Shown: positions 24,643 to 37,032 of the stretch, piece by piece
Numbering within the stretch: position 1 is the stretch's first letter
Layout: every line of letters starts with the position of its first letter
Assembly: GCA_002238685.1 (NCBI GenBank)
Contig: MPMV01000012.1
Coordinates: 1-64,000 of the forward strand
Direction of reading: 5' to 3'
DNA from: a bacterium EF100-94H03 bin56
Lineage (GTDB): Bacteria; Pseudomonadota; Alphaproteobacteria; SP197
Length of the DNA: 64,000 nt
Program-made: the position numbers and the translations under genes
The notes under the pieces: model-generated
What the model was told of the DNA's origin: nothing
Database searches by the model: none
Seen by the model: only the letters and a program-made list of their open reading frames with translations

Positions 24643-25449
24643 TCAGTCGTCACGGCCCTGTTGTCCGCGGCTCGGAATGAGCAGGCTCGCGGCAAAGGCC
24701 ACGCTTGCGACAAGCACGATGGCCGGTCCTGCCGGAATGTCCCATTCCAGCGAACTGAACAGACCGGAGATGACCGCGATGATCCCGATGACCGCGGACG
24801 CAACGGCCATCTGTTCGGGTGTCGATGACACACGGCGTGCGGCAGCGGCGGGAATGATCACCAGCGCCACGACGAGAAGCATTCCGACGATCTTCATGCC
24901 TACCGCGATCACTCCGGCGAGCATGATCAGAAGCAGGAAGCGCACCCGTTCCACGGGCACCCCTTCCACCGCGGCGAGGTCCCTGTTGACGGTCACAGAG
25001 AGAAGATTGCGCCATTGCCAGAGGAGCGCGGCTATCGAAATGGCGGCGGTCGTGTAGATGAGCCACAGGTCGACGACGCCGACAGAGAGGATGTCTCCGA
25101 AGAGGTAGCCGACAAGATCGACCCGCAGGCGTTCCATGAACGCAATGACGACAAGGCCCGCCGCGAACACCGCGTGAGCCAGGACTCCGAGCAGGGCGTC
25201 GAGAGAAACGAGCCGTTGTCGCTCGAGAAGAATGAGGCATCCCGCGAGTATGAAACACATTGCGAAGACCCCGACGAACGGCTCCAGTTCGAGGAGAAAG
25301 CCGAGAGCGATCCCGAGAAGCACCGCATGCGCAAGCGCCGTGCCGAAGTAGGCCATGCGTCTCCAGATGACGAAGCATCCGACCGGACCCGCCGCGAGCG
25401 CGGCTCCGATTCCGCCCGCGAGCGCACGCAGAACGAAATCCTCCGTCAT
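24643..25449 (-). CDS. znuB: Zinc ABC transporter permease
   Basis: 268 residues, ABC-3 (ZnuB) family, with about eight membrane helices. Typical segments are GPVGCFVIWRRMAYFGTALA near the N-terminus, then GYLFGDIL, LAAVEGVPVERVRFLLLIML and VALVIIPAAAARR. It forms the inner-membrane channel of the zinc importer. The start overlaps the znuC stop by 4 bases. The partner znuA lies 7.6 kb upstream on the same strand, beyond five unusual genes. Confidence 0.95.
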   Translation of the reverse strand: MTEDFVLRALAGGIGAALAAGPVGCFVIWRRMAYFGTALAHAVLLGIALGFLLELEPFVGVFAMCFILAGCLILLERQRLVSLDALLGVLAHAVFAAGLVVIAFMERLRVDLVGYLFGDILSVGVVDLWLIYTTAAISIAALLWQWRNLLSVTVNRDLAAVEGVPVERVRFLLLIMLAGVIAVGMKIVGMLLVVALVIIPAAAARRVSSTPEQMAVASAVIGIIAVISGLFSSLEWDIPAGPAIVLVASVAFAASLLIPSRGQQGRDD

Positions 25450-26249
25450 CCTTGCCCTCCGGACATGTCCGGGCTCTTCGGATCGCCGTCATCGATCGGT
25501 ACCGGCTCGCCACGCTCGTCATGGCGGTGATCGTGCCTGTGCGGGTAGATCGCAATCGCGTTCGCCACATGCGGTCCAAAGAGGGAGACGAACTCCGGGT
25601 GGCGCGTGATCACTTTCGGATGGCCGCTGCAGCACACATGCCGATTGAGGCATACCACGGTGTCCGTTGCGGCCATGACCATGTGCAGATCGTGCGAGAC
25701 GAGCAGCACACCACAGCCGTACCGGTCCCGAATGGTCGCGATCAACTGGTAGAGTTCGGCCTGACTGGTCACATCGACTCCCGCAAGCGGTTCGTCGAGC
25801 ACGAGCAGACCAGGTTCGCGCAACAGCGCGCGCGCGAGAAGCACGCGATGAAGCTCTCCGCCGGAGACTTCGGCCAGAGGATGGTTCAGGATCGTGCCGG
25901 CGCCGACTTCGGCGAGCACTTTCTTGAGCCTGTCGTGTGACGCAGGCGCCCCGAGGGTGAGGAATCTCCGGACCGTCATGGGTAGAATCGGATCGCGGTG
26001 CACATGCTGCGGCGAATATCCGATGCGCAGACCCGGTGTCCGCACGACCGTGCCGAGATCGGGACGGACGATACCGAACAACACGCGAATGAGCGTTGAC
26101 TTGCCCGCACCATTGAGACCGACCAGGGTCACGATTTCCCCGGCATGGACGGCAATGTCAACCTTGTCGAGCACATTTTGCCGCCCGAAACTCACACTCA
26201 CGCCCCGCGCCTCGATCAGCGGTCGTGCCCTGGAGGCGTCACCGGGCAT
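25446..26249 (-). CDS. znuC: Zinc ABC transporter ATP-binding protein
   Basis: 267 residues from the ATG at 26249; an in-frame ATG at 26327 would add 26 residues of atypical sequence. Walker A GLNGAGKSTLI, signature VSGGELHRVLLARAL, Walker B LLVLDEPLAGVD and switch LLVSHDLHMVMA are intact, with the ZnuC-type RIGYSPQHVHRDPILPMTV segment. The C-terminus is histidine-rich (YPHRHDHRHDERG), a metal-binding tail seen in many ZnuC. It energises ZnuB. A ~320-base gap separates it from the preceding gene of the SPFH cluster. Confidence 0.95.
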   Translation of the reverse strand: MPGDASRARPLIEARGVSVSFGRQNVLDKVDIAVHAGEIVTLVGLNGAGKSTLIRVLFGIVRPDLGTVVRTPGLRIGYSPQHVHRDPILPMTVRRFLTLGAPASHDRLKKVLAEVGAGTILNHPLAEVSGGELHRVLLARALLREPGLLVLDEPLAGVDVTSQAELYQLIATIRDRYGCGVLLVSHDLHMVMAATDTVVCLNRHVCCSGHPKVITRHPEFVSLFGPHVANAIAIYPHRHDHRHDERGEPVPIDDGDPKSPDMSGGQG

Positions 26250-26570
26250 CGTTCGTGAGCCTGGAGCAAGGTGGATGTCGCTGGCCGACAGGACCTGTGC
26301 TCGCGACGGGTGTCCGTGAGACCTCACCTGGTGCTTCGTTCATTCCTGGTCCCTCCCCGGGGATGCCGAATCGGAAATTGCCGGACCGGACAAGGGCGGT
26401 GCCGATCGTGCCGTTGACTCTATCGCCGCCGCGGACAGCCAGTCGCCGTCAGGGCACGGCGTCCCGGGCCGAACCCTGTCCCGGGAGTTCCCGTCCGCAT
26501 CCAATGTTGTCACGCGGGCGAAATTCTTCAGGTGCGGCATTCGGCCGAAACGGGAGACCCGGAGAGGTGT

Positions 26571-27059
26571 TCAGAAGAATACGACCAGCAGCGCGACACC
26601 GGCCACCCCGCCCAGGATGAAGGTGGCGGCGCTGACGATACCGGTGAGGGTGCTCCAGTCGGCAAGGCGCCATGTCAAGCCCTCGATGTTGAACATGACC
26701 TGGAAACGGTTGTCGTCGCCGTCGGCGAAACGTTTCAGGGCAGCCTCGGCGCCGTGCGCTTCCTTGATCGAGACCAGTGTGACGAGGATCATGCTCAGCG
26801 CCGATGTCAGCGTGCCCAGACCGAAGACCAGCACCGTCGCAAGCGCGAACCAGTGGAAGGTGCCCTCGTTCTCGCCCGTGGTGGTGCTCATGAAGCCGAT
26901 GACGAGAGCGGCACCGCCGGCATTGCCGAACAGGAGAAGACGGACCGACTCGAGAAGCATCCGGAACATGACGTTGCGGCGCATCGCAACGACCTTGTAT
27001 CCCTCCCGGAGCCACTCTTCGCCGGTCTCTTCCATGGAAAATTCATCGAGTTTCTTCAC
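26571..27059 (-). CDS. Small membrane protein of the SPFH-permease cluster, function unknown
   Basis: 162 residues, not recognised. A basic/acidic cytoplasmic N-terminus (to ~30) is followed by three likely membrane segments, about 38-58, 68-98 and 138-162, the last ending at the C-terminus (GVALLVVFF). Between them lies a polar stretch with AEAALKRFADGDDNRFQVMF. The start overlaps the stop of the binding-protein gene by 4 bases (ATGA), so it is made together with it. It may be a membrane partner of the SPFH proteins or of the binding protein. Confidence 0.75.
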   Translation of the reverse strand: MKKLDEFSMEETGEEWLREGYKVVAMRRNVMFRMLLESVRLLLFGNAGGAALVIGFMSTTTGENEGTFHWFALATVLVFGLGTLTSALSMILVTLVSIKEAHGAEAALKRFADGDDNRFQVMFNIEGLTWRLADWSTLTGIVSAATFILGGVAGVALLVVFF

Positions 27060-28240
27060 TCGGCGGCCTCCCTTTCGGAATTGTAGCTGGAGAGGTCGAT
27101 AATTCGCACGTAGTCCGAGCCGACATTGCTGCCTTCGTCGAAGGCGATCTCCCAGCCGTCGATAAGGACGGGATCCTGCGACAGTGCTGTTGCCAGAAAC
27201 ACCTCCCGGCTCATCTCGTCCGGCATTCGTTTGAGAACCTCGACCACAAAACGACCCAGGATGTAACCCTCCAGGCTCAATGGACTCGCGGCGACCTCCG
27301 CAATCTCCGGCTCAGCGTTCCGGTAAGCGTCGAGGGCGAGATGGAAGCGCCTCACCAGCGCGGTGCTTTCGTTGGCGATGTCCGGAGTGACTCTCGTCAG
27401 GAAGATCCGTTCTTTCGAGTAGTCCAGAGACGCTTCCAGGCGCTCGGTATCCACAAAGGACAGGAGGCCGAAGGCATAGTCGTTGCCAAGGGATCGCGTC
27501 GTGTTGATCACTTCAGCGGCAGGCGCGAGTGTTGTGGCCAGCAGCACGACGTCCAGATCGGCCTTTTCCATGACGAACACGGTCGAGTGAACTGCGTGGG
27601 AGTGCCGCGAATAGGCCGCCTTGGCGAGTATCGAGAAATCGAAGGTACTCAAGGTGTCTTGGTAGCTGGCTACCACGGTGTGACCGAACGAGTCGTCCTG
27701 ATGAATGATACCGAATCGCCGGGCATCCATGTTTTCGACAAAGTGCCCCACCAGGCTCTGTGTTTCCTCGGCGTACCCGGCGCGCAGGTTCACCACGTTC
27801 GGATACCGTCGGGTGTCTCTCAGGAATTCGGCCCCTGTGAGGTGACCGACGAAGGGCATCATGACCTTGCGGAAAACAGGCGCCATGCGCTCGGTCGTCG
27901 GCGTGCCGATTCCACCCAGGACGGCAAACACCTCATCGGTGGTGACGAACCGGTTCGCGTTGGCCGCCGCACGGTCCGGCTCGTAGCCGTCGTCCAGCGC
28001 CAGGAGCACCAGCTTCCTGCCGTTGATGCCACCACCGTCGCGGTTGAATTCGTGGAACGCTGCCAGGATGCCACTGCGGTACTGGGTGCCCGCATACCCG
28101 CAGGAGCCGCTGAAGCAACCGCTCTGGCCGAAGATGATGGAGTTCCCGGTTACGCCCGGTGCCGCTGCCGACGCATCAAACGTGGCCCCCGCCGTCAGCA
28201 CAAGGAAGAGGGCTGCAACACGGCTAGTGGTTGCCGTCAT
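27056..28240 (-). CDS. Periplasmic binding protein type 1 (LivJ-like) in the SPFH-permease cluster
   Basis: 394 residues with a signal peptide (AALFLVLTAGATFDASA) and a type 1 periplasmic-binding fold: SIIFGQSGCFSGSCGYAGTQ, FNRDGGGINGRKLVLLALDD and RFGIIHQDDSFGHTVV are the hallmarks of branched-chain amino-acid/amide sensors. No LIV permease or ATPase is nearby, so it may act as a sensor rather than a transport protein. The two cysteines in the ligand-proximal loop (CFSGSC) are unusual. The ATG at 28240 lies 17 bases inside the upstream SPFH gene; the downstream gene overlaps by 4 bases. Confidence 0.85.
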   Translation of the reverse strand: MTATTSRVAALFLVLTAGATFDASAAAPGVTGNSIIFGQSGCFSGSCGYAGTQYRSGILAAFHEFNRDGGGINGRKLVLLALDDGYEPDRAAANANRFVTTDEVFAVLGGIGTPTTERMAPVFRKVMMPFVGHLTGAEFLRDTRRYPNVVNLRAGYAEETQSLVGHFVENMDARRFGIIHQDDSFGHTVVASYQDTLSTFDFSILAKAAYSRHSHAVHSTVFVMEKADLDVVLLATTLAPAAEVINTTRSLGNDYAFGLLSFVDTERLEASLDYSKERIFLTRVTPDIANESTALVRRFHLALDAYRNAEPEIAEVAASPLSLEGYILGRFVVEVLKRMPDEMSREVFLATALSQDPVLIDGWEIAFDEGSNVGSDYVRIIDLSSYNSEREAAE

Positions 28241-29606
28241 CTTGTTTCTCTTCTGCCGGCGCGTGTTGCCCTTCCGATGATTCGGGCATCGTTGCCGTCG
28301 AAGATTCCCGCCCCTCTTGGACTTCTTCGCTTGTGTCGATGATCGTTTTCTCGACCATCGGCAACTCACTCTGTTCCACCTCCACCGCAACAGGCGTCGG
28401 TGTGACATGGCGATGGGAGAAGATGGAGAGATCGTCGAAGATCAGAGAACGCAGCTCGGCAGTCCCCAGATGATGTCGTTCACTCCTGGGAGAATGGAAG
28501 CGTCCGTCCAGGAGATAATTGTCCGACTGGACCGCCTCGAGTCCGTGTGCCCCTCTCTCGCTCGCCAGGGTAATCGAGGATGCCGTGCCAGGCAGGGTCC
28601 CCACGGGCGCCGCCGCCGCCACGCCGGGTACCTGGCCAACGCCGGGTACGAAACTCTCGATCATGTTGATGTCGATTGTCGAGACGTCGCCCGGATTCAC
28701 CTTTGCCAGCGTCGCATCCCGAAAGACTTCGCGCATTCTCTGCCAGTAGCGGGTTGTCGACACCGAGGAGGGCTCGTTTCGATATGCAGTCAGCAAGTCC
28801 ATGAATGCCTGCGCGCTGCTTGCGGCTTGCAACCGGCGTTCTCTCGCGCTGGCCCTGGCGGCAAGCACCACCGCTTCGGCCTGCCCCCTGCTGCGGGCCA
28901 GGAGCTGTTCTGCCCTCTGGTTGGCCTCGCTTATGGTCTCGATGCTCTCGGCGATCGCATCGCTCACATCGCGGAATGAGGCCACTGTTTCATCGATGGG
29001 CCGCAGACCCACGATATTGATCGCCAGCAGTTCGATACCGATGTCGTTGGCTTCCAGATAGGCCTTGGTTTCGTCGAACAGGCGTTTCTGAATGATATCG
29101 CGATTGTTGGTGAAGATGAGGTCGATGAAATTGTTGCTCATGTTGCCGACCAGGCGTTCCCGCACGATGAGAACAAGCACGGCATGCGGGTCGGCGGTCG
29201 CGTAGAGGTAGTTCTTCAGATTCCCGATCTTGTATTGCAGCGCCACATCCACCTCAAAGAGGTTCGTGTCGCCAGACAGGATCGAAAAATAGACGTTGCC
29301 GTTCTCATCCTGTGTCGCCACGTTCCGCCGGGTCACGCGCGTGACTTTCCGCACAAGGGCCCGTTCCATGATCGGAAACACGTAATGAAGGCCGGGATGA
29401 ACGTCTGCGTTCACCACCTTGCCAAACCGCGTGACGACCGCCTGTTCTTCCTTTTTCACGACGTATATGCCGTCTGTCAGTCCGACGAGCACGGCAAGAA
29501 CCACGAGCGACACGAACAACGGCACCCGGCGTTCACGCACCCAGTCGAAGCTCGAGTGGATGACGCGTGTGCTCCAGGGGAGCGTTTCGGAAGTGGTGTC
29601 AGACAT
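28224..29606 (-). CDS. SPFH-domain membrane protein, HflK-like
   Basis: 460 residues: cytoplasmic N-terminus, one membrane helix at about 29-49, then an SPFH/band-7 domain (YVVKKEEQAVVTRFGKVVNA, HPGLHYVFPIMERALVRKV) and a helical coiled region rich in Ala/Glu/Arg (EANQRAEQLLARSRGQAEAV). The ~130-residue C-terminal tail is low in homology, proline/glycine-rich and ends acidic. HflK/HflC form a membrane cage around the FtsH protease in other bacteria; no ftsH is linked here. It starts 12 bases after the HflC-like gene and overlaps the binding-protein start by 17 bases. Confidence 0.88.
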   Translation of the reverse strand: MSDTTSETLPWSTRVIHSSFDWVRERRVPLFVSLVVLAVLVGLTDGIYVVKKEEQAVVTRFGKVVNADVHPGLHYVFPIMERALVRKVTRVTRRNVATQDENGNVYFSILSGDTNLFEVDVALQYKIGNLKNYLYATADPHAVLVLIVRERLVGNMSNNFIDLIFTNNRDIIQKRLFDETKAYLEANDIGIELLAINIVGLRPIDETVASFRDVSDAIAESIETISEANQRAEQLLARSRGQAEAVVLAARASARERRLQAASSAQAFMDLLTAYRNEPSSVSTTRYWQRMREVFRDATLAKVNPGDVSTIDINMIESFVPGVGQVPGVAAAAPVGTLPGTASSITLASERGAHGLEAVQSDNYLLDGRFHSPRSERHHLGTAELRSLIFDDLSIFSHRHVTPTPVAVEVEQSELPMVEKTIIDTSEEVQEGRESSTATMPESSEGQHAPAEEKQDDGNH

Positions 29607-29618
29607 GAATGCGACCCA

Positions 29619-30515
29619 TTACTCCGGTGCCGGCAACATCCCGTCACCGTCGAGATACCTGAACAACTCGCTGTCGGCGGGGAGTATCAGCGTCGTGTTC
29701 CTGTCGATGATCGCATCGTAGCTGTCGAGCGCCCGAATGAACTTGTAGAAATCCGGGTCTTCACTGTACGCGGCGGCAAGCGTGGTCATTGCTTCGGCTT
29801 CGGCCTCTCCAAGAATGATGGTGGCTTCGGCATGGGCGGTGGCCATGAGTTTCTCGTGCTCATGGATGGCGAATGCCTCGATGCGTATGGCCTGTTCTTC
29901 TCCCTCGCTGCGGTAGCGGGCGGCAATTCGGGCGCGTTCGGAGATCATCCGCTGAATGACGCTGGGTCGGTTTTCCGGCGGCAGGGTGTACTCGACAATG
30001 CCGACCTTCATGACGTCTATGCCATAGTCCCCGGCGATCGGCTTGACCAGATCGAGGATCTCGCCGGAAATCAGTGAGACGTCCTGATGTTCCAGGCCGA
30101 TGCTCACGAACACTTCCCGGGGTTTGTTGCTGACCACGATGCCTGCGCTTGATCGATAGAGATCGCTGAGCCGCTCGACGGCCCTGACCTCGGTTCTGAT
30201 CGATTTCACGTAGCGAATTGGGTCCACGACGCGCCACAACAGGTAGCCGTCGACCAGGACGTTCTTCTGGTCTTCGGTGATGAACTCCTGGCTGAGGTTT
30301 GTGAGCGGATGTATGCGACGGTCCACCTTGTAGACCTTCGAGACCGGCCACGGGAACTTGAAATGCAGGCCCGGTTCCTTCACCGGTGGTGCGATCTTGC
30401 CGAAATGGGTGAGGACGCCTTGCTCCGATTCATCAACGGTGTAGATGCTGTCGTAGACCAGGATGGCGAGCAGCAGGACGACAATGACGCTCACAATTCG
30501 TCTGCCTCTGGTCAT
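29619..30515 (-). CDS. SPFH-domain membrane protein, HflC-like
   Basis: 298 residues. One N-terminal membrane helix (about 8-24), then the SPFH domain: YTVDESEQGVLTHFGKIAPP, EPGLHFKFPWP, VDGYLLWRVVDPIRYVKSI. The helical region reads RARIAARYRSEGEEQAIRIE and carries on to HAEATIILGEAEAEAMT, as in HflC. It lies between the permease-SPFH fusion and the HflK-like gene. The pairing of an HflC- with an HflK-type protein suggests a hetero-oligomeric cage as in HflKC. This is a second, dedicated set if the genome also has canonical hflKC; I cannot see that. Confidence 0.9.
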   Translation of the reverse strand: MTRGRRIVSVIVVLLLAILVYDSIYTVDESEQGVLTHFGKIAPPVKEPGLHFKFPWPVSKVYKVDRRIHPLTNLSQEFITEDQKNVLVDGYLLWRVVDPIRYVKSIRTEVRAVERLSDLYRSSAGIVVSNKPREVFVSIGLEHQDVSLISGEILDLVKPIAGDYGIDVMKVGIVEYTLPPENRPSVIQRMISERARIAARYRSEGEEQAIRIEAFAIHEHEKLMATAHAEATIILGEAEAEAMTTLAAAYSEDPDFYKFIRALDSYDAIIDRNTTLILPADSELFRYLDGDGMLPAPE

Positions 30516-30576
30516 AGCGAGTCTCCTACAATTCCGGTTGCGGACATTCCCCGACGGAAGCGTGGGGGATGCCGTC

Positions 30577-32850
30577 TCAGTGGTGAGGCGCCATTGGCGT
30601 GGCGCCGTTCGATGACTTCCACAAGGCTACCTTGTTCAGTGTTTCTTCGCTCGGGACGATGATCTTGTTCCGGCCGGCAAGGGAGGTTTCCAGCTTCTCT
30701 CGCCAGAGCATGTTGTGAAGGACACCCGGCGTCAGACGAACCACGCCGGCGATCAGGCGAATGGCGTCGCTTTCCGCCCTAGAGGTGATGGTCCTTCGTG
30801 CCGCTTCGCCCTTGGCCTGCTCGAGTTCATAGGCCGCGTTGCCATGCGCCCGGGGAATCAACATGACCAGCAGGCGCTGGGCATTGACGATGATGCGCTC
30901 CCTGTCGTCCTGGGAACTCGAAACCTCCCTGAAGGCGCTCAACGTGGCATCGATGGGCTGTGCGGAAAGCAGGTTCACCTTGACGAGTTCGATGGTGTCG
31001 AGCACTTCGCTATCTCCGCCCAAAGCACGATTCTCGAAGACATTCGCGATGTGGGTTTGCAAGGCCTCACGCTCCACGTTCAGCAGGTCGTCCAGGGTTC
31101 GCCCGGCTACGAACTTGCGGAGCTCCTTGCGCACATTGTCGGCGACGGCCTGTTCAGGGGTCGCGATCATATAGTGATAGGTGTAGGGGTCGCTTACCCG
31201 GTACTGCACGTTCACCGACATGGTCATGAGATTGACATCGCCGGTGAGATACTCGTATCCGTCACCGCTGGTGATGGACTTCACTTCGCTGACCGGCCAC
31301 TTGTCAGCCCTGGCGAAGGGTTGCGGTGCAAGATAATGCAGGCCCGGCGGCAGATCCCGCCACACGACCGCGCCAAAGAGGCGTCCGTAGCCGACCTCGC
31401 CAGGCTGCACGACAGTGAAACCGCTCAACAGGAATGCGGCGACGAGTGTCAGCCAGACGGTGATTCCCGCGGGAGTACGCGGGTTGACGGTCCCTGTGAC
31501 GGGCGCGTTGCGGGTAACACGGGACCACCATGTCTTGAGGGGCGCCGAAAGCGGGCGAAGGTTTGAAAGCAGGTCCTGGTATCCGCTCTTCAACGCTCCT
31601 GCGCGAAATCGCCAGATGATGAGTGCGATGAGTCCGATGGCGCCGCCCCACTGCAAGATCATGATCGCCGGCGAGTCGGACGCCTCCAGGTTCACGGACA
31701 GCGAAAGGCCGAATGCGATCAGAAGGAGATCGATAGCGATGCCCAGCGCTACCGTGACCGCAACCACCGAGCCGACGTACACGGAAGCGAAGCGCACACC
31801 AAACTGGCTTACGATAATGGCAATCGTTCCGGTGTTGGTGGCAGGACCGGTCATCAGGAAGATGAGGGCCGCGCCGGGACTGAATCCCTTGGCGACCAGG
31901 GCCGCTGCGATCGGTGTGCTGGCAGAGGCGCAGATGTAGAGCGGGATACCCACCAACACCATGACGGGATACGATATCCAGCGGGCGTACTCATAGGCCA
32001 TGAGGTCGCTGGGTATTGCCAGGTAGATGACACCACCGAGCGCGACACCGACCAGCAGGGCGAACAGAATGTCGTCGGCGACGTCGACGAAGCCGTAACG
32101 CAGGATGTGTCGACAGACGGTCGCGAACGTGACGCCCCCGAGGTTCCGCTCCGTCGTGGAACTCGGGGGAGGCGTAACCTGGGAAGGCGCGAGGAACTCG
32201 CGGTAGAACTCAGGCTTGATCCATGTCGTGGTGCGGATTTGCCCCACGCTCTCGCCCAGGCGGCGCAGCCAGACCAGGAAGAAGCCCTTGAGTTCGCTCG
32301 CACTCACATAGCAGTCGTCGGCGCCCGGTATGAGTGGTTCGTGGCTGTGGCTGTGATCATGGCTGTGACCGTGACCGTGGCTGTGACCGTGGTGGTCATG
32401 ACTCTCGTCTTCCGCAACTGTTTCGTCCGTGTCGCGATCGCGGATCAACCCGATGCAGAAGATGCCGGCCACCACACCCGTGACGAAGCTGACAACGGGT
32501 CTCACGATTGCAGGGATGAAGCCGAAGAATGCCTGGGTGACCAGAATCGAGTCCACTCCGGTCTCCGGAGCGGTGATCAGGAAGGACATGCACGATGAAC
32601 GGGACGCTCCCTTGCGGCGCATCTCGGCCACGACCGGCACCACTGAACAACTGCAGAGCGGCATCGGCACACCGATGGCCGCGCTGGAAGAAACCGATTT
32701 GAGGCTGTCCGCCTGCAGCCACTTGAGCACGGCCTCGCGCGATATGAACACATGGATCAATCCCGCCAGAAACAGGCCAAGCAGGAGCATCGGCGCCAGA
32801 ACGAGAAACGACGACCACAGGAAATCGAAGAACAGGGTCAACTGATCCAT
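30577..32850 (-). CDS. Fusion: SO_0444/ArsP-type metal permease with C-terminal SPFH (HflK-like) domain
   Basis: 757 residues. The first ~420 form a two-repeat permease with the family motif PLCSCSVVPVVAEMRRKGAS (65-84, with a CSCS signature) and the second-half SASTPIAAALVAKGFSPGAA and FLMTGPATNTG (308-341). Between the halves is a histidine-rich cytoplasmic or periplasmic loop (HDHHGHSHGHGHSHDHSHSH, 151-170), typical of Zn/Cu/Ni handling. A further helix at about 462-482 leads into a full SPFH domain (GFTVVQPGEVGYGRLFG ... PPGLHYLAPQPF) and its helical arm to ~720. SO_0444 relatives are proposed Cu/Zn effluxers. The fusion ties the permease covalently to an SPFH scaffold. It starts 170 bases after znuA. 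Confidence 0.9.
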   Translation of the reverse strand: MDQLTLFFDFLWSSFLVLAPMLLLGLFLAGLIHVFISREAVLKWLQADSLKSVSSSAAIGVPMPLCSCSVVPVVAEMRRKGASRSSCMSFLITAPETGVDSILVTQAFFGFIPAIVRPVVSFVTGVVAGIFCIGLIRDRDTDETVAEDESHDHHGHSHGHGHSHDHSHSHEPLIPGADDCYVSASELKGFFLVWLRRLGESVGQIRTTTWIKPEFYREFLAPSQVTPPPSSTTERNLGGVTFATVCRHILRYGFVDVADDILFALLVGVALGGVIYLAIPSDLMAYEYARWISYPVMVLVGIPLYICASASTPIAAALVAKGFSPGAALIFLMTGPATNTGTIAIIVSQFGVRFASVYVGSVVAVTVALGIAIDLLLIAFGLSLSVNLEASDSPAIMILQWGGAIGLIALIIWRFRAGALKSGYQDLLSNLRPLSAPLKTWWSRVTRNAPVTGTVNPRTPAGITVWLTLVAAFLLSGFTVVQPGEVGYGRLFGAVVWRDLPPGLHYLAPQPFARADKWPVSEVKSITSGDGYEYLTGDVNLMTMSVNVQYRVSDPYTYHYMIATPEQAVADNVRKELRKFVAGRTLDDLLNVEREALQTHIANVFENRALGGDSEVLDTIELVKVNLLSAQPIDATLSAFREVSSSQDDRERIIVNAQRLLVMLIPRAHGNAAYELEQAKGEAARRTITSRAESDAIRLIAGVVRLTPGVLHNMLWREKLETSLAGRNKIIVPSEETLNKVALWKSSNGATPMAPHH

Positions 32851-32880
32851 GACAGTGTGCCGTCCAGCGGCTTCCGATGC

Positions 32881-33039
32881 CTAAACCGTCTCCGAAAGTG
32901 GAGGATAAGTCAACGTCATCCAATGGGCTTCATGTGACTGCGTATCCTCCCTGACGCCGAAATTTCGGGCCATCGCGCAATGGCCGCAGGCGTCGGAGCA
33001 ACCGATGCCCGCCACCGGAATCACGCATCGTCCAGACAT
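32881..33039 (-). CDS. Possible Cys-rich mini-protein between znuA and the permease fusion
   Basis: A 52-codon frame starts with an ATG inside the last codons of znuA (19-base overlap) and ends 30 bases before the permease gene. It encodes a C-x-x-x-C-x-x-C cluster (GIGCSDACGHCAMARNF) and several His residues downstream. Position and metal-ligand content make it suggestive. There is no clear ribosome site and I know no family for it, so it may be chance. Confidence 0.3.
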   Translation of the reverse strand: MSGRCVIPVAGIGCSDACGHCAMARNFGVREDTQSHEAHWMTLTYPPLSETV

Positions 33040-34013
33040 CCGGCGATGGCGTCGCCCAGGGAGCGCATCATCTCGAACCACGCGTCCGGACCGGGTTCGA
33101 AATCGACACCGATCGGGTCGAGCTCCGCAATTCGCACCGTCGTTCCCTCGGTCAGGGTCTGCACAAGATCCGGTGGAAACTGGGGCTCGATGAAGACACA
33201 ACGGATATCGTGTTCGACAAGGGCGGCGCGCAGTTCGACGAGTCGCTTCGTGCCGGGCGGGCGGCCCGGATCGACGGCGACGGCGCCCACACTGTTGAGA
33301 CCGAATGCATGTTCGAAATACTGATAACCGTCGTGGAACACGACGAACGCGCGCTGTTTCACCGGCTCCAGTTGCTCCATGATCGACATTTCCAGCGAGG
33401 CGATGCGCTCCACCATCGCATCGGCGTTGCTGCGATAGATCTCGGCGCGGCCAGGGTCGGAGCGGATGAGCGCGTCGGCTGTGACTTCGACAATGCGGCT
33501 GGCGTTTCCGGGATCGAGCCAGATGTGCATGTCGAACTCGCCGTGTTCGTGGCCGTGATCGTCATGCTCGTCGACGTGTGCTTCCTTGTCTTCGTCGTGC
33601 TCGTCGGGCCACAGTCCGCCCTCGCGAGTGGGCAACAACTCCATCCTTGCCACTTCGTGCAAGGTGATGAGTTCGGCGTCGGCCCCGAGGTTCTCGATGG
33701 CGCGCTCAAGGAACATTTCCATGTTCTCGCCGATCCACACAATGAGATCCGCCGTGTTCAGCGCCTGCGCCTCGGACGGGCGCATCTGGTAGGTATGGGG
33801 TGATGCCGCGCCCGTGACCATCAGCCCGGGTTCACCGGTCTCTCCCATCACGCCGGAGACGAGGGAATGGACCGGCTTGATACTCACGATGACATCCGTG
33901 GCCTGCGCATGAGGCGCGGAAACGAAGGCAAGGGCGCACAGCGCGGCAAGGACCGCAACTTTGCGCACGGCCAGCGACCGCGCGGAACCCAAAAGGCACA
34001 TGAAACCCCGCAT
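33021..34013 (-). CDS. znuA: Periplasmic zinc-binding protein of the zinc ABC importer
   Basis: 330 residues. A signal peptide (VAVLAALCALAFVSAPHAQA) precedes a cluster A-I binding protein with zinc-ligand histidines in KPVHSLVSG (49), SPHTYQMRPS (73) and EFDMHIWLDP (163), and an acidic end-strand ligand region. The charged His/Asp loop at about 137-158 (DEHDDHGHEHGE) is the hallmark of ZnuA rather than manganese proteins. The ATG at 34013 is chosen because CCGGAGA lies 7 bases upstream; longer in-frame starts lack this. It is separated from its znuCB partners by the SPFH-permease cluster. Confidence 0.95.
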   Translation of the reverse strand: MRGFMCLLGSARSLAVRKVAVLAALCALAFVSAPHAQATDVIVSIKPVHSLVSGVMGETGEPGLMVTGAASPHTYQMRPSEAQALNTADLIVWIGENMEMFLERAIENLGADAELITLHEVARMELLPTREGGLWPDEHDEDKEAHVDEHDDHGHEHGEFDMHIWLDPGNASRIVEVTADALIRSDPGRAEIYRSNADAMVERIASLEMSIMEQLEPVKQRAFVVFHDGYQYFEHAFGLNSVGAVAVDPGRPPGTKRLVELRAALVEHDIRCVFIEPQFPPDLVQTLTEGTTVRIAELDPIGVDFEPGPDAWFEMMRSLGDAIAGCLDDA

Positions 34014-34493: not shown

Positions 34494-35177
34494 TTATCCG
34501 TTGCCGGAACTCTTGGACGAAATGGCGGAGGACGGACCGTGACTGAACCTTCCGGCGGCGGGCTGGATGGCCAGGTCGAGCGCGGTCAGGAAGGTCCGGC
34601 CGATCAGTTCCAGCTTTCGCACCAGGCCGATGCGTTCGGAAACCCCGGCCAGCTCGTCCGCAGACAGGACATGGCCGATCAGTCCGCAACCGTCTGCCAG
34701 AGTGACGATCACGATGTCCCTCGGGTCGGGAATCGTGTCTGTCAGGAGTACGTCCCGGATCCGCCCGAACAGCCCGCGCTCGACCGCTGCATTCGCGAGC
34801 GTGTAGTGCCGTGCCCCGAATATCCTGAGGAAGCGGTCGTCGCTCACATTCAGGACGCCGTTATCGACCAGCCGTGTCAGTGCGGTTTCGCGAATCGCGT
34901 CGGCATGGTGGGTCGCATGCTCCACCCAGTAGAGCGCGTCATGGGTCTGGTCGGCTTGCGCGATCTCGACGAGTATTGGATCAAGAAGAGGATCGCCGAC
35001 CGGCGCCGCATCGATCAGGAACAGCCGCTCGGCATCGGTGTCGATGCGGTTCTCCAAAGCGAGGTCCATCAGGACCGCCCCACCCAGAGCGTAACGGACC
35101 AGCCATTCCGGGGCCCGCGACAGTGCTCCGTCCTCATCGCGGAGCAGGAGAAGGAACTCCTCGGCAAGTCTCATCAT
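34494..35177 (-). CDS. GPP34 (GOLPH3/Vps74-like) protein
   Basis: 227 residues. It opens MMRLAEEFLLLLRDEDGAL, the typical start of the GPP34 fold, followed by LVRYALGGAVLMDLALENRI and a C-terminal VRKLELIGRTFLTALDLAI helix. In eukaryotes GOLPH3/Vps74 binds phosphatidylinositol-4-phosphate at the Golgi; bacterial relatives are mostly actinobacterial and their role is unknown. The start overlaps the Pit transporter stop by 4 bases (ATGATGA), so the two proteins are co-translated. The extension upstream of 35177 is rejected because it lies within the transporter gene. Confidence 0.82.
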   Translation of the reverse strand: MMRLAEEFLLLLRDEDGALSRAPEWLVRYALGGAVLMDLALENRIDTDAERLFLIDAAPVGDPLLDPILVEIAQADQTHDALYWVEHATHHADAIRETALTRLVDNGVLNVSDDRFLRIFGARHYTLANAAVERGLFGRIRDVLLTDTIPDPRDIVIVTLADGCGLIGHVLSADELAGVSERIGLVRKLELIGRTFLTALDLAIQPAAGRFSHGPSSAISSKSSGNG

Positions 35178-36442
35178 CCGGCCCCCGGAAGGAATATCGC
35201 CGACAAGAGGAAATAGAACATAACCGCGAGCACCGCTCCGACGGGAAGCGTCACCACCCACGATATGAAGATGCTGCGGACCACGCCCAGGTCAAGGGCG
35301 CCCAGCCCTCGCGCGAGGCCCACCCCCAGCACGGCGCCCACCAGCGTCTGGGTGGTCGAAACCGGCAACCCCGTGCCGCTCGCCACGACGACCGTCGACG
35401 CGGCGGCAAACTCGGCGGCAAATCCGCGGCTCGGCGTGAGCTCGGTGATCTTCCGCCCGATGGTCGCCATGACCCGATAACCGAACGTCGCCAGGCCAAC
35501 CACGATTCCGGCCGCACCAACCAGCAGCACCCAGACCGGAACCGCCGACTTGGCGGCGACCCCGCCGGTCGACACCACGGCCACGATCGCGGCGACGGGC
35601 CCGATCGCGTTGGCAACGTCGTTGGAGCCATGCGCAAAGGCCATGCCCGACGCGGTCACGATCATGAGGATGCCGAACACCTTCTCGACGTCATTGAACC
35701 GCGATTGCCCCCCTGTGGGAGCCTCGAGGCTCCGGAAGCGCAATCGGTTGATGACCAGTCGGCAAACGACGGCAACAATGCCGGCCATGAGCACCGAGTA
35801 CAGGATCGCTATCGGCATGCTCAGATCCAGGCCGACATGCTTCAGGCCCTTGACGAAGGTGACGGTGGCGGTCACGAGCACTGCGGCGAAGATGTAGACG
35901 GGCACATACCGTCGGGCCTGGATGGCCGGATCGTCCTTGTTGAAGATCAGCCACTGCACGCTCAGCACCAGGAGAAACGCGATTATTCCGGCGATCACCG
36001 GGGTGACCACCCAACTCGCTGCGATCGTTGCCACGTCCCACCAGTGAACGGCCTCGACGCCGATTGCGACCAGGGCAAACCCGATGATGGCTCCGACGAT
36101 CGAGTGCGTGGTCGATACGGGCCAGCCGAACCTGGAGGCGACCGTCAGCCAGGCGGCAGCCGCCAGAAGCGCAGACAGCATGCCGACGACCAGCAGATCG
36201 GGATCGTGATCGAGAGCCTCGACGTCGATGATGCCCTTGCGGATCGTCGACGTGACCTCTCCGCCGGCAAGAAACGCCCCGAGGAACTCGAACGTCCCGG
36301 CTATCACGATGGCACCGCCGACCGTGATCGCGCCTGAGCCGACGGACGTTCCCATCGAGTTTGCCACGTCGTTGGCGCCGATCGCCCAGGCCATGTAGAG
36401 ACCGGCGACGATTGCCGCAACCAGAATGATTGTCAGGCTCAT
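35174..36442 (-). CDS. pit: Inorganic phosphate transporter, Pit family
   Basis: 422 residues with ~10 membrane helices and the two inverted-repeat PHO-4 signatures: AIGANDVANSMGTSVGSGAI (near residue 20) and AHGSNDVANAIGPVAAIVAV in the second half, plus WPVSTTHSIVGAIIG and LPVSTTQTLVGAVLG. It is a proton-coupled carrier of metal-phosphate complexes; E. coli PitA is known to bring in zinc as well as phosphate. The ATG at 36442 gives the normal N-terminus. Coupled to the GPP34-like gene and placed upstream of the zinc cluster on the same strand. Confidence 0.93.
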   Translation of the reverse strand: MSLTIILVAAIVAGLYMAWAIGANDVANSMGTSVGSGAITVGGAIVIAGTFEFLGAFLAGGEVTSTIRKGIIDVEALDHDPDLLVVGMLSALLAAAAWLTVASRFGWPVSTTHSIVGAIIGFALVAIGVEAVHWWDVATIAASWVVTPVIAGIIAFLLVLSVQWLIFNKDDPAIQARRYVPVYIFAAVLVTATVTFVKGLKHVGLDLSMPIAILYSVLMAGIVAVVCRLVINRLRFRSLEAPTGGQSRFNDVEKVFGILMIVTASGMAFAHGSNDVANAIGPVAAIVAVVSTGGVAAKSAVPVWVLLVGAAGIVVGLATFGYRVMATIGRKITELTPSRGFAAEFAAASTVVVASGTGLPVSTTQTLVGAVLGVGLARGLGALDLGVVRSIFISWVVTLPVGAVLAVMFYFLLSAIFLPGAG

Positions 36443-37032
36443 GTCCAAGGAGAACGACTCCCGGGGTCTGTGCCGCTCTGCATGGGCGTTCCAACGCAAG
36501 TACAACCCGAGTTCGACGTACACGCGTACACGACGGGGAAAAAGCATATCACACGGGTGGCGGGCGTGGTAACCAACTGCCGAAGGGCGTCCCGATCGTG
36601 CCTCCTGACCACTCGAACCGCCGGACGATGAACGCCACTATGCAACCTGCGTCCGGCTTGGGCGGCAGCACCGGTACCGCTTGCGGTTGCCTCGGTCACA
36701 CTGGCGGAAAGCACAAGGCGTGTGCCTTCGAATCTCCGTTCGCACCGGTTCCGGCGTTCATCATGCTCAATGAGGTTTCGGGTATGGCGATGATTCCGGG
36801 CAACTCCGTCGTGCTGATGTCCATCCGAACGATGAGAAGACTGTCGAGTCGTAAGCGGCGGCTTGGCGCACTGATCGAGGCCGTGCCCCGTCATGGGGAT
36901 CCGGAGGTGGTCATCGCCCGACCGGAAACTGTGGTCGAGGGCCTCGCGCGGGCCATCGACGACATGCGGGCCGGCCCGTACAAGGCCCAGGCCTGCGAAC
37001 GCTGAACGGCATCCTGCGAGTTCGGCCCTGTC
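36443..37032. other. Gap with one doubtful reading frame
   Basis: No recognised gene. A plus-strand frame from an ATG at 36628 to 37005 (125 codons) has a hydrophobic middle (FIMLNEVSGMAMIPGNSVVL) followed by a basic and then acidic helix, but no ribosome site or family. It might be a small unannotated gene. Confidence 0.25.

Follow-up and report, generated by a model that had tools for sequence, protein, structure and literature searches.

Why would a metal permease fused to an SPFH domain, together with four further genes, be found between the genes of a zinc importer? This question is raised by the window, that is, the whole stretch of 64,000 nucleotides from the alphaproteobacterial contig MPMV01000012.1 that was analysed. 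Five minus-strand genes (32850–26571) sit there between znuA and znuCB. A sequence-only reading of this DNA had proposed that they form a single unit, that they take part in a zinc-homeostasis system which might couple import, export, and membrane proteolysis or scaffolding, and that no described system of such composition was known. On recheck, all of its coordinates, strands, and spacings proved exact.

Gene content of the locus and properties of its proteins

The run of genes, in the order in which they are read, is as follows:

33021..34013, minus strand: znuA, zinc ABC substrate-binding protein, first gene of the run (Pfam ZnuA 7e-66; NCBIfam PRK09545 248.7 bits, cut-off 268)
30577..32850, minus strand: gene 1, SO_0444 Cu/Zn permease::HflK-type SPFH fusion (NF033936 320.7 bits, cut-off 300; Band_7 3.6e-10; HflK chain match 5e-22)
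29619..30515, minus strand: gene 2, HflC-type SPFH protein (TIGR01932 178.3 bits, cut-off 134.4; PDB HflC 8e-42; tree)
28224..29606, minus strand: gene 3, HflK-type SPFH protein (Band_7 2e-14; best match HflK, 127.4 bits, cut-off 159.4)
27056..28240, minus strand: gene 4, LivJ-like periplasmic binding protein (Peripla_BP_6 1e-41; signal-like N-terminus)
26571..27059, minus strand: gene 5, small membrane protein of 162 aa (without a family in Pfam, NCBIfam, or PDB)
25446..26327, minus strand: znuC, zinc ABC ATP-binding protein (NCBIfam PRK09544 307.6 bits, cut-off 306)
24643..25449, minus strand: znuB, zinc ABC permease (Pfam ABC-3 1e-67; PRK09543 277 bits, cut-off 284)

A gap of 170 bp separates the end of znuA (33021) from the start of the fusion gene (32850), which is followed by gaps of 61 and 12 bp and then by overlaps of 17 and 4 bases. 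The start codon of znuC is uncertain and lies at or below position 26327, at least 243 bp past the small membrane gene, and znuC may have its own promoter.

The fusion protein is laid out as a permease (approximately residues 1–420), an extra transmembrane segment, and an HflK-type SPFH domain (approximately residues 465–745). An Arg/Lys-rich segment (approximately residues 414–460) precedes the extra transmembrane segment and suggests that the SPFH domain is periplasmic, as it is in HflK. Against the HflK family TIGR01933 the fusion scored 111.5 bits, below the cut-off of 159.4. The AlphaFold model of the fusion was not usable (pLDDT 33); therefore, the cage and the topology discussed here rest on homology.

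The permease had been assigned from its sequence to a family with a proposed role in Cu/Zn efflux, and this assignment holds: the permease half passes the NF033936 equivalog cut-off in the window as well as in L047, L048, and L059 (320–322 bits). By Pfam, the same permease falls into the ArsP_1 family. The permease motifs PLCSCS, PLYICASASTPIAAAL, and GPATNTGT are kept across all fusion homologues compared, with no variation in PLCSCS, CASASTPIAAAL, and GPATNTGT among 13 sequences. The His-rich loop noticed earlier is also real, spanning approximately residues 150–170 of the fusion, with six loop histidines invariant in 13 homologues. Mutant data show that SO_0444 is needed for growth in zinc or copper excess (PMC3219624).

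A second, divergent SO_0444::HflK fusion was found in G325 (L060:3785-5872, minus strand; 373.6 and 158.6 bits). A 121-aa N-terminal fragment resembling HflC comes before it, and no LivJ-like or small membrane genes were seen on this short contig. The pair hints that an HflK-type fusion and a C-type partner are the core of the system.

A quick maximum-likelihood tree of SPFH proteins, which has long branches, grouped gene 2 with HflC, and the fusion (gene 1) and gene 3 with HflK. Genes 1 and 3 were sisters (support 87), and the SPFH proteins of the cluster formed long-branch groups apart from canonical HflK and HflC. Gene 2 was recovered on a separate branch of this quick tree, not as an orthologue of the canonical hflC of its lineage. 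The genome of the window also keeps canonical hflKC on another contig. With one C-type and two K-type paralogues, the cluster thus encodes, by homology, its own complete K-plus-C set. The E. coli assembly around FtsH has 24 subunits, in which HflK and HflC alternate (PMC12048511). Gene 3 also carries a C-terminal extension (residues 354–400) in which H354, H371, H378, H379, H398, and H400 are invariant; these histidines are candidate metal ligands.

Likewise, the LivJ-like protein displays invariant C42, C47, H63, H213, H215, and H218. The residues aligned to these positions in 4kv7, its closest solved structure, are not Cys or His, and we regard those of the LivJ-like protein as candidate metal ligands. 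No cognate ABC transporter genes for this protein are found among the five cluster genes. Meanwhile, the small membrane protein has three predicted long helices (AlphaFold pLDDT 63, low confidence) and, when searched alone, was confined to cluster-bearing genomes (4 of 385).

Conservation of the cluster and its linkage to zinc-uptake genes

The five genes were found in identical order in 16 loci from 15 genomes or bins, which is more than expected by chance and gives good support to the claim that they form one unit. Full-length fusions came from the window, two more genomes of its genus, three further genomes in an even sample of 385 from the class, and ten more GTDB contigs; the GTDB contig search gave 12 loci, two of which were the two genus members already counted. 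Most of the 16 loci belong to metagenome bins. One locus is an exception to the intact set (L052), as its gene 3 is interrupted and its gene 5 matched only partly. No full-length fusion was detected outside Alphaproteobacteria in a 398-genome sample of the phylum, which besides the window yielded only matches to the permease half, nor was the fusion found in plasmids. The cluster is rare. One metagenome bin (jk18x22bins.41) contained two different copies of the cluster (L050 and L056), which may be separate loci or may come from a mixed bin.

The sequence-only reading had named linkage to zinc genes in other genomes as a check on the zinc role. This linkage was found throughout: znuA and/or znuBC lie within 10 kb of the cluster in all 16 loci, in six arrangements:

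znuA, the five genes, and znuCB collinear: window, L038, L039
znuCB divergent from znuA and the five genes: L047
the five genes convergent with znuBCA: L048–L051, L053, L055, L056; in L058 with znuBC only
the five genes, then znuA reversed and znuCB forward: L052
znuA divergent from the five genes: L054, L057
znuC, znuB, znuA, and the five genes collinear: L059

Because the linkage outlasts repeated rearrangement, these arrangements suggest that the cluster is functionally tied to the zinc genes, beyond mere descent. Other neighbours of the window locus recur as well: a GPP34-domain gene (34494–35261, minus strand) and a PHO4-family phosphate permease (35174–36547, minus strand) are found beside znuA or beside the fusion gene in most of the loci.

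Zur-type sites and the direction of control

A Zur weight matrix was built only from 11 published sites of Caulobacter (PMC4176598, Table 1) and Paracoccus (PMC5387054, Table 7). It was scanned over each locus (10–23 kb), and significance was assessed against 500 dinucleotide shuffles. Outside the window genus, 12 loci have a fusion promoter region of their own, and in 11 of these (L048–L058) the best Zur-type site of the locus lies at most 400 bp upstream of the fusion gene, with a score reached by no more than 5 of the 500 shuffles. Several of them have two sites, 24–30 bp apart. Sites were also present upstream of znuA in the same loci, except L058, in which no znuA was seen. In L047, the sites of the fusion gene are weak (79/500 shuffles) and that of znuA is strong (2/500). 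By eye, the upstream regions of the fusion genes fall into only about six unrelated groups, so the 11 loci are not fully independent.

The scan returned no Zur-type sites in L059. The window displayed no Zur-type palindromes, with best scores of 4.2 upstream of the fusion gene (23/500 shuffles) and 2.3 upstream of znuA (68/500), and none of the three cluster-bearing genomes of its genus has a Zur-type site at znuA or the fusion gene. Among these three genomes, zur was not found in G000 and G010, the window genome being one of the two; G011 does have zur, and a site precedes that gene. A single near-palindrome in G000 (contig C11) was rejected as a Zur site, as it precedes an integrase-like gene. 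Another member of the genus, which lacks the cluster (G009), encodes four Zur-like paralogues on contigs C365, C394, C144, and C83. The proposed zinc role is thus well supported in the family, through the linkage in 16 of 16 loci and the Zur-type sites, but these sites are gone in the window genus, so that the zinc link there is one of operon position only. For the same reason, the Zur control that we infer from these sites would apply to the cluster family and not to the window.

Most carriers encode a third Fur-family protein, and the three examined had their best match to Zur (PRK11639, 104–108 bits, under the cut-off of 167); G761 has two Fur-family matches only. Near-exact Zur palindromes are rare genome-wide, occurring in at most five places per genome and in none at all in 5 of 11 genomes. 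Those of G368 include one at the promoter of its fusion gene, and G368, G291, and G762 each have one before an aztAB-like zinc ABC operon. Formamidase-like and LysR-like loci of the same three genomes (L135, L140, L142; L136–L138) have near-exact Zur-type palindromes as well.

Where the sites lie bears on whether Zur would repress or activate. In several loci, the znuA site overlaps a predicted −10 element, and such overlap is the repressor geometry reported for Caulobacter. At the fusion gene, the site is centred 136–238 bp before the start codon (338 bp in two loci), and in L052, L054, and L057 a promoter-like pair, TTGAC(A/C)-N18-CATAGT, follows approximately 120–140 bp downstream of it. 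In Caulobacter, a site upstream of the −35 element accompanies activation of an efflux operon, and dual roles of Zur are reported in Pseudomonas and Streptomyces. By analogy, the distant site of the fusion gene would fit an activated exporter, and a repressed upstream promoter would fit as well. The predicted promoters were considered as an arbiter of repression versus activation and proved ambiguous.

Explanations for the cluster and comparison with known systems

The zinc link of the cluster is strong. Given that the cluster stays beside zinc-uptake genes through rearrangements and usually carries Zur-type sites, it very probably adds a new element to the zinc balance of bacteria. On balance, we consider it probable that the five genes encode a dedicated zinc-homeostasis membrane complex, an HflK/HflC-like assembly with a built-in Zn/Cu permease that would balance ZnuABC through zinc efflux and periplasmic buffering. 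The HflC-type and the two HflK-type proteins would come together as a ring or cage resembling that of HflK and HflC, on the periplasmic side of the inner membrane. The SO_0444 permease forms the N-terminal part of one HflK-type subunit, so the Zn2+ (possibly Cu) that it moves would enter or leave the space enclosed by the cage. Metal there would be bound or sensed, close to ZnuA, by the LivJ-like protein with its Cys and His residues and by the His-containing tail of the other HflK-type subunit. Most likely, the net effect would be controlled efflux of zinc, with periplasmic buffering, set against its uptake by ZnuABC. We infer the direction of export, the cage, and the role of the LivJ-like protein; the mutant data on SO_0444 lend support, by analogy, to efflux by the permease of the cluster. 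More tentatively, an SPFH cage that encloses its own metal permease could possibly form a periplasmic compartment that, regulated by Zur, stores zinc or routes it between an exporter and ZnuABC.

Most of the carriers checked also keep other zinc exporters, of the CDF or P-type families, an observation that neither bears out nor excludes the efflux reading. We rejected the idea that the cluster is a substitute for other exporters (missing CDF or ZntA), as the pattern was mixed.

A different role, in low-zinc salvage, would have the cluster repressed by Zur like znuA. During zinc starvation, the permease-SPFH complex would then either import zinc, as such or in a complex captured by the LivJ-like protein, or recycle zinc of the envelope. 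Several observations agree with it: znuA and the fusion gene share a type of site upstream, a near-exact site outside the locus precedes an uptake operon, a binding protein belongs to the unit, and znuA is co-oriented with the cluster in the window genus. However, the characterised SO_0444 protects against excess of zinc and copper (PMC3219624), the unit has no ATPase, and the site of the fusion gene is far upstream, unlike the znuA site of most loci. We judge salvage to be rather unlikely.

Control of proteolysis is a less probable role still. The three SPFH proteins would here be a specialised form of HflKC that, upon zinc change, directs FtsH to ZnuB or other transporters for degradation, with the permease serving as a metal-sensing anchor. 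HflK and HflC are indeed partners of FtsH (PMC12048511), and genes 1–3 are of the K and C types. Yet the unit lacks a protease gene, the genome retains canonical hflKC, and the SPFH genes of the cluster are long-branch paralogues. The invariant motifs of the permease would be needless for a mere anchor, and counterparts of the FtsH-contact arginine (HflK Arg191) are mapped without certainty in the cluster proteins, since its numbering is ambiguous relative to the chain used. It is highly improbable that the genes are near znu merely by descent and that the permease, an ArsP_1 member by Pfam, has no part in zinc handling and transports something else, for example an organometal, given that the linkage outlasts six rearrangements, that Zur-type sites recur in unrelated upstream sequences, and that NF033936 is matched above its equivalog cut-off.

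The complex that we favour, a zinc-efflux and buffering assembly, shares parts with several known systems. As in SO_0444, its permease half passes the equivalog cut-off for NF033936 and keeps the key motifs, but it is fused to an HflK-type SPFH domain and has a long His-rich loop; SO_0444 of Shewanella adjoins a ZntR-like regulator and has no znu or Zur setting. No SPFH genes were found within approximately 1.5 kb of the stand-alone SO_0444-like genes checked. The likeness to HflK-HflC lies in the one C-type and two K-type proteins, which are encoded together and align with the solved chains into their C-terminal regions. Unlike HflK-HflC, the cluster has a permease on one K subunit and a His-containing C-terminal extension on the other, and it adds a binding protein, a membrane protein, and linkage to zinc genes. 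The czr Zur regulon of Caulobacter (PMC4176598) has the same kind of operator, and in the cluster family, too, a single regulator would govern genes for zinc uptake and for a presumed exporter; its pumps are of the RND and P-type families, without an SPFH component (PMC4176598).

The prokaryotic SPFH subfamilies surveyed previously (PMC2636767) resemble the cluster in that their SPFH genes have conserved operon partners; permease, transporter, zinc, and metal are unmentioned in the main text of that survey. The earlier impression that no system of this composition has been described agrees with the mainly open-access journal papers searched: none of them combines SPFH proteins with SO_0444 or with znu/Zur. 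What would be new is an SPFH complex with a transporter as a built-in client.

The role of most bacterial SPFH proteins is an open question, and in this cluster one of them is covalently linked to a metal transporter. This covalent link and the regulator-type sites, which name the likely metal, make the idea that SPFH assemblies organise or enclose transporters directly testable. If the proposed role is true, the cluster would be a new component of Zur-controlled zinc homeostasis, and it would offer a possible function for a family of small membrane proteins and for an orphan binding protein.
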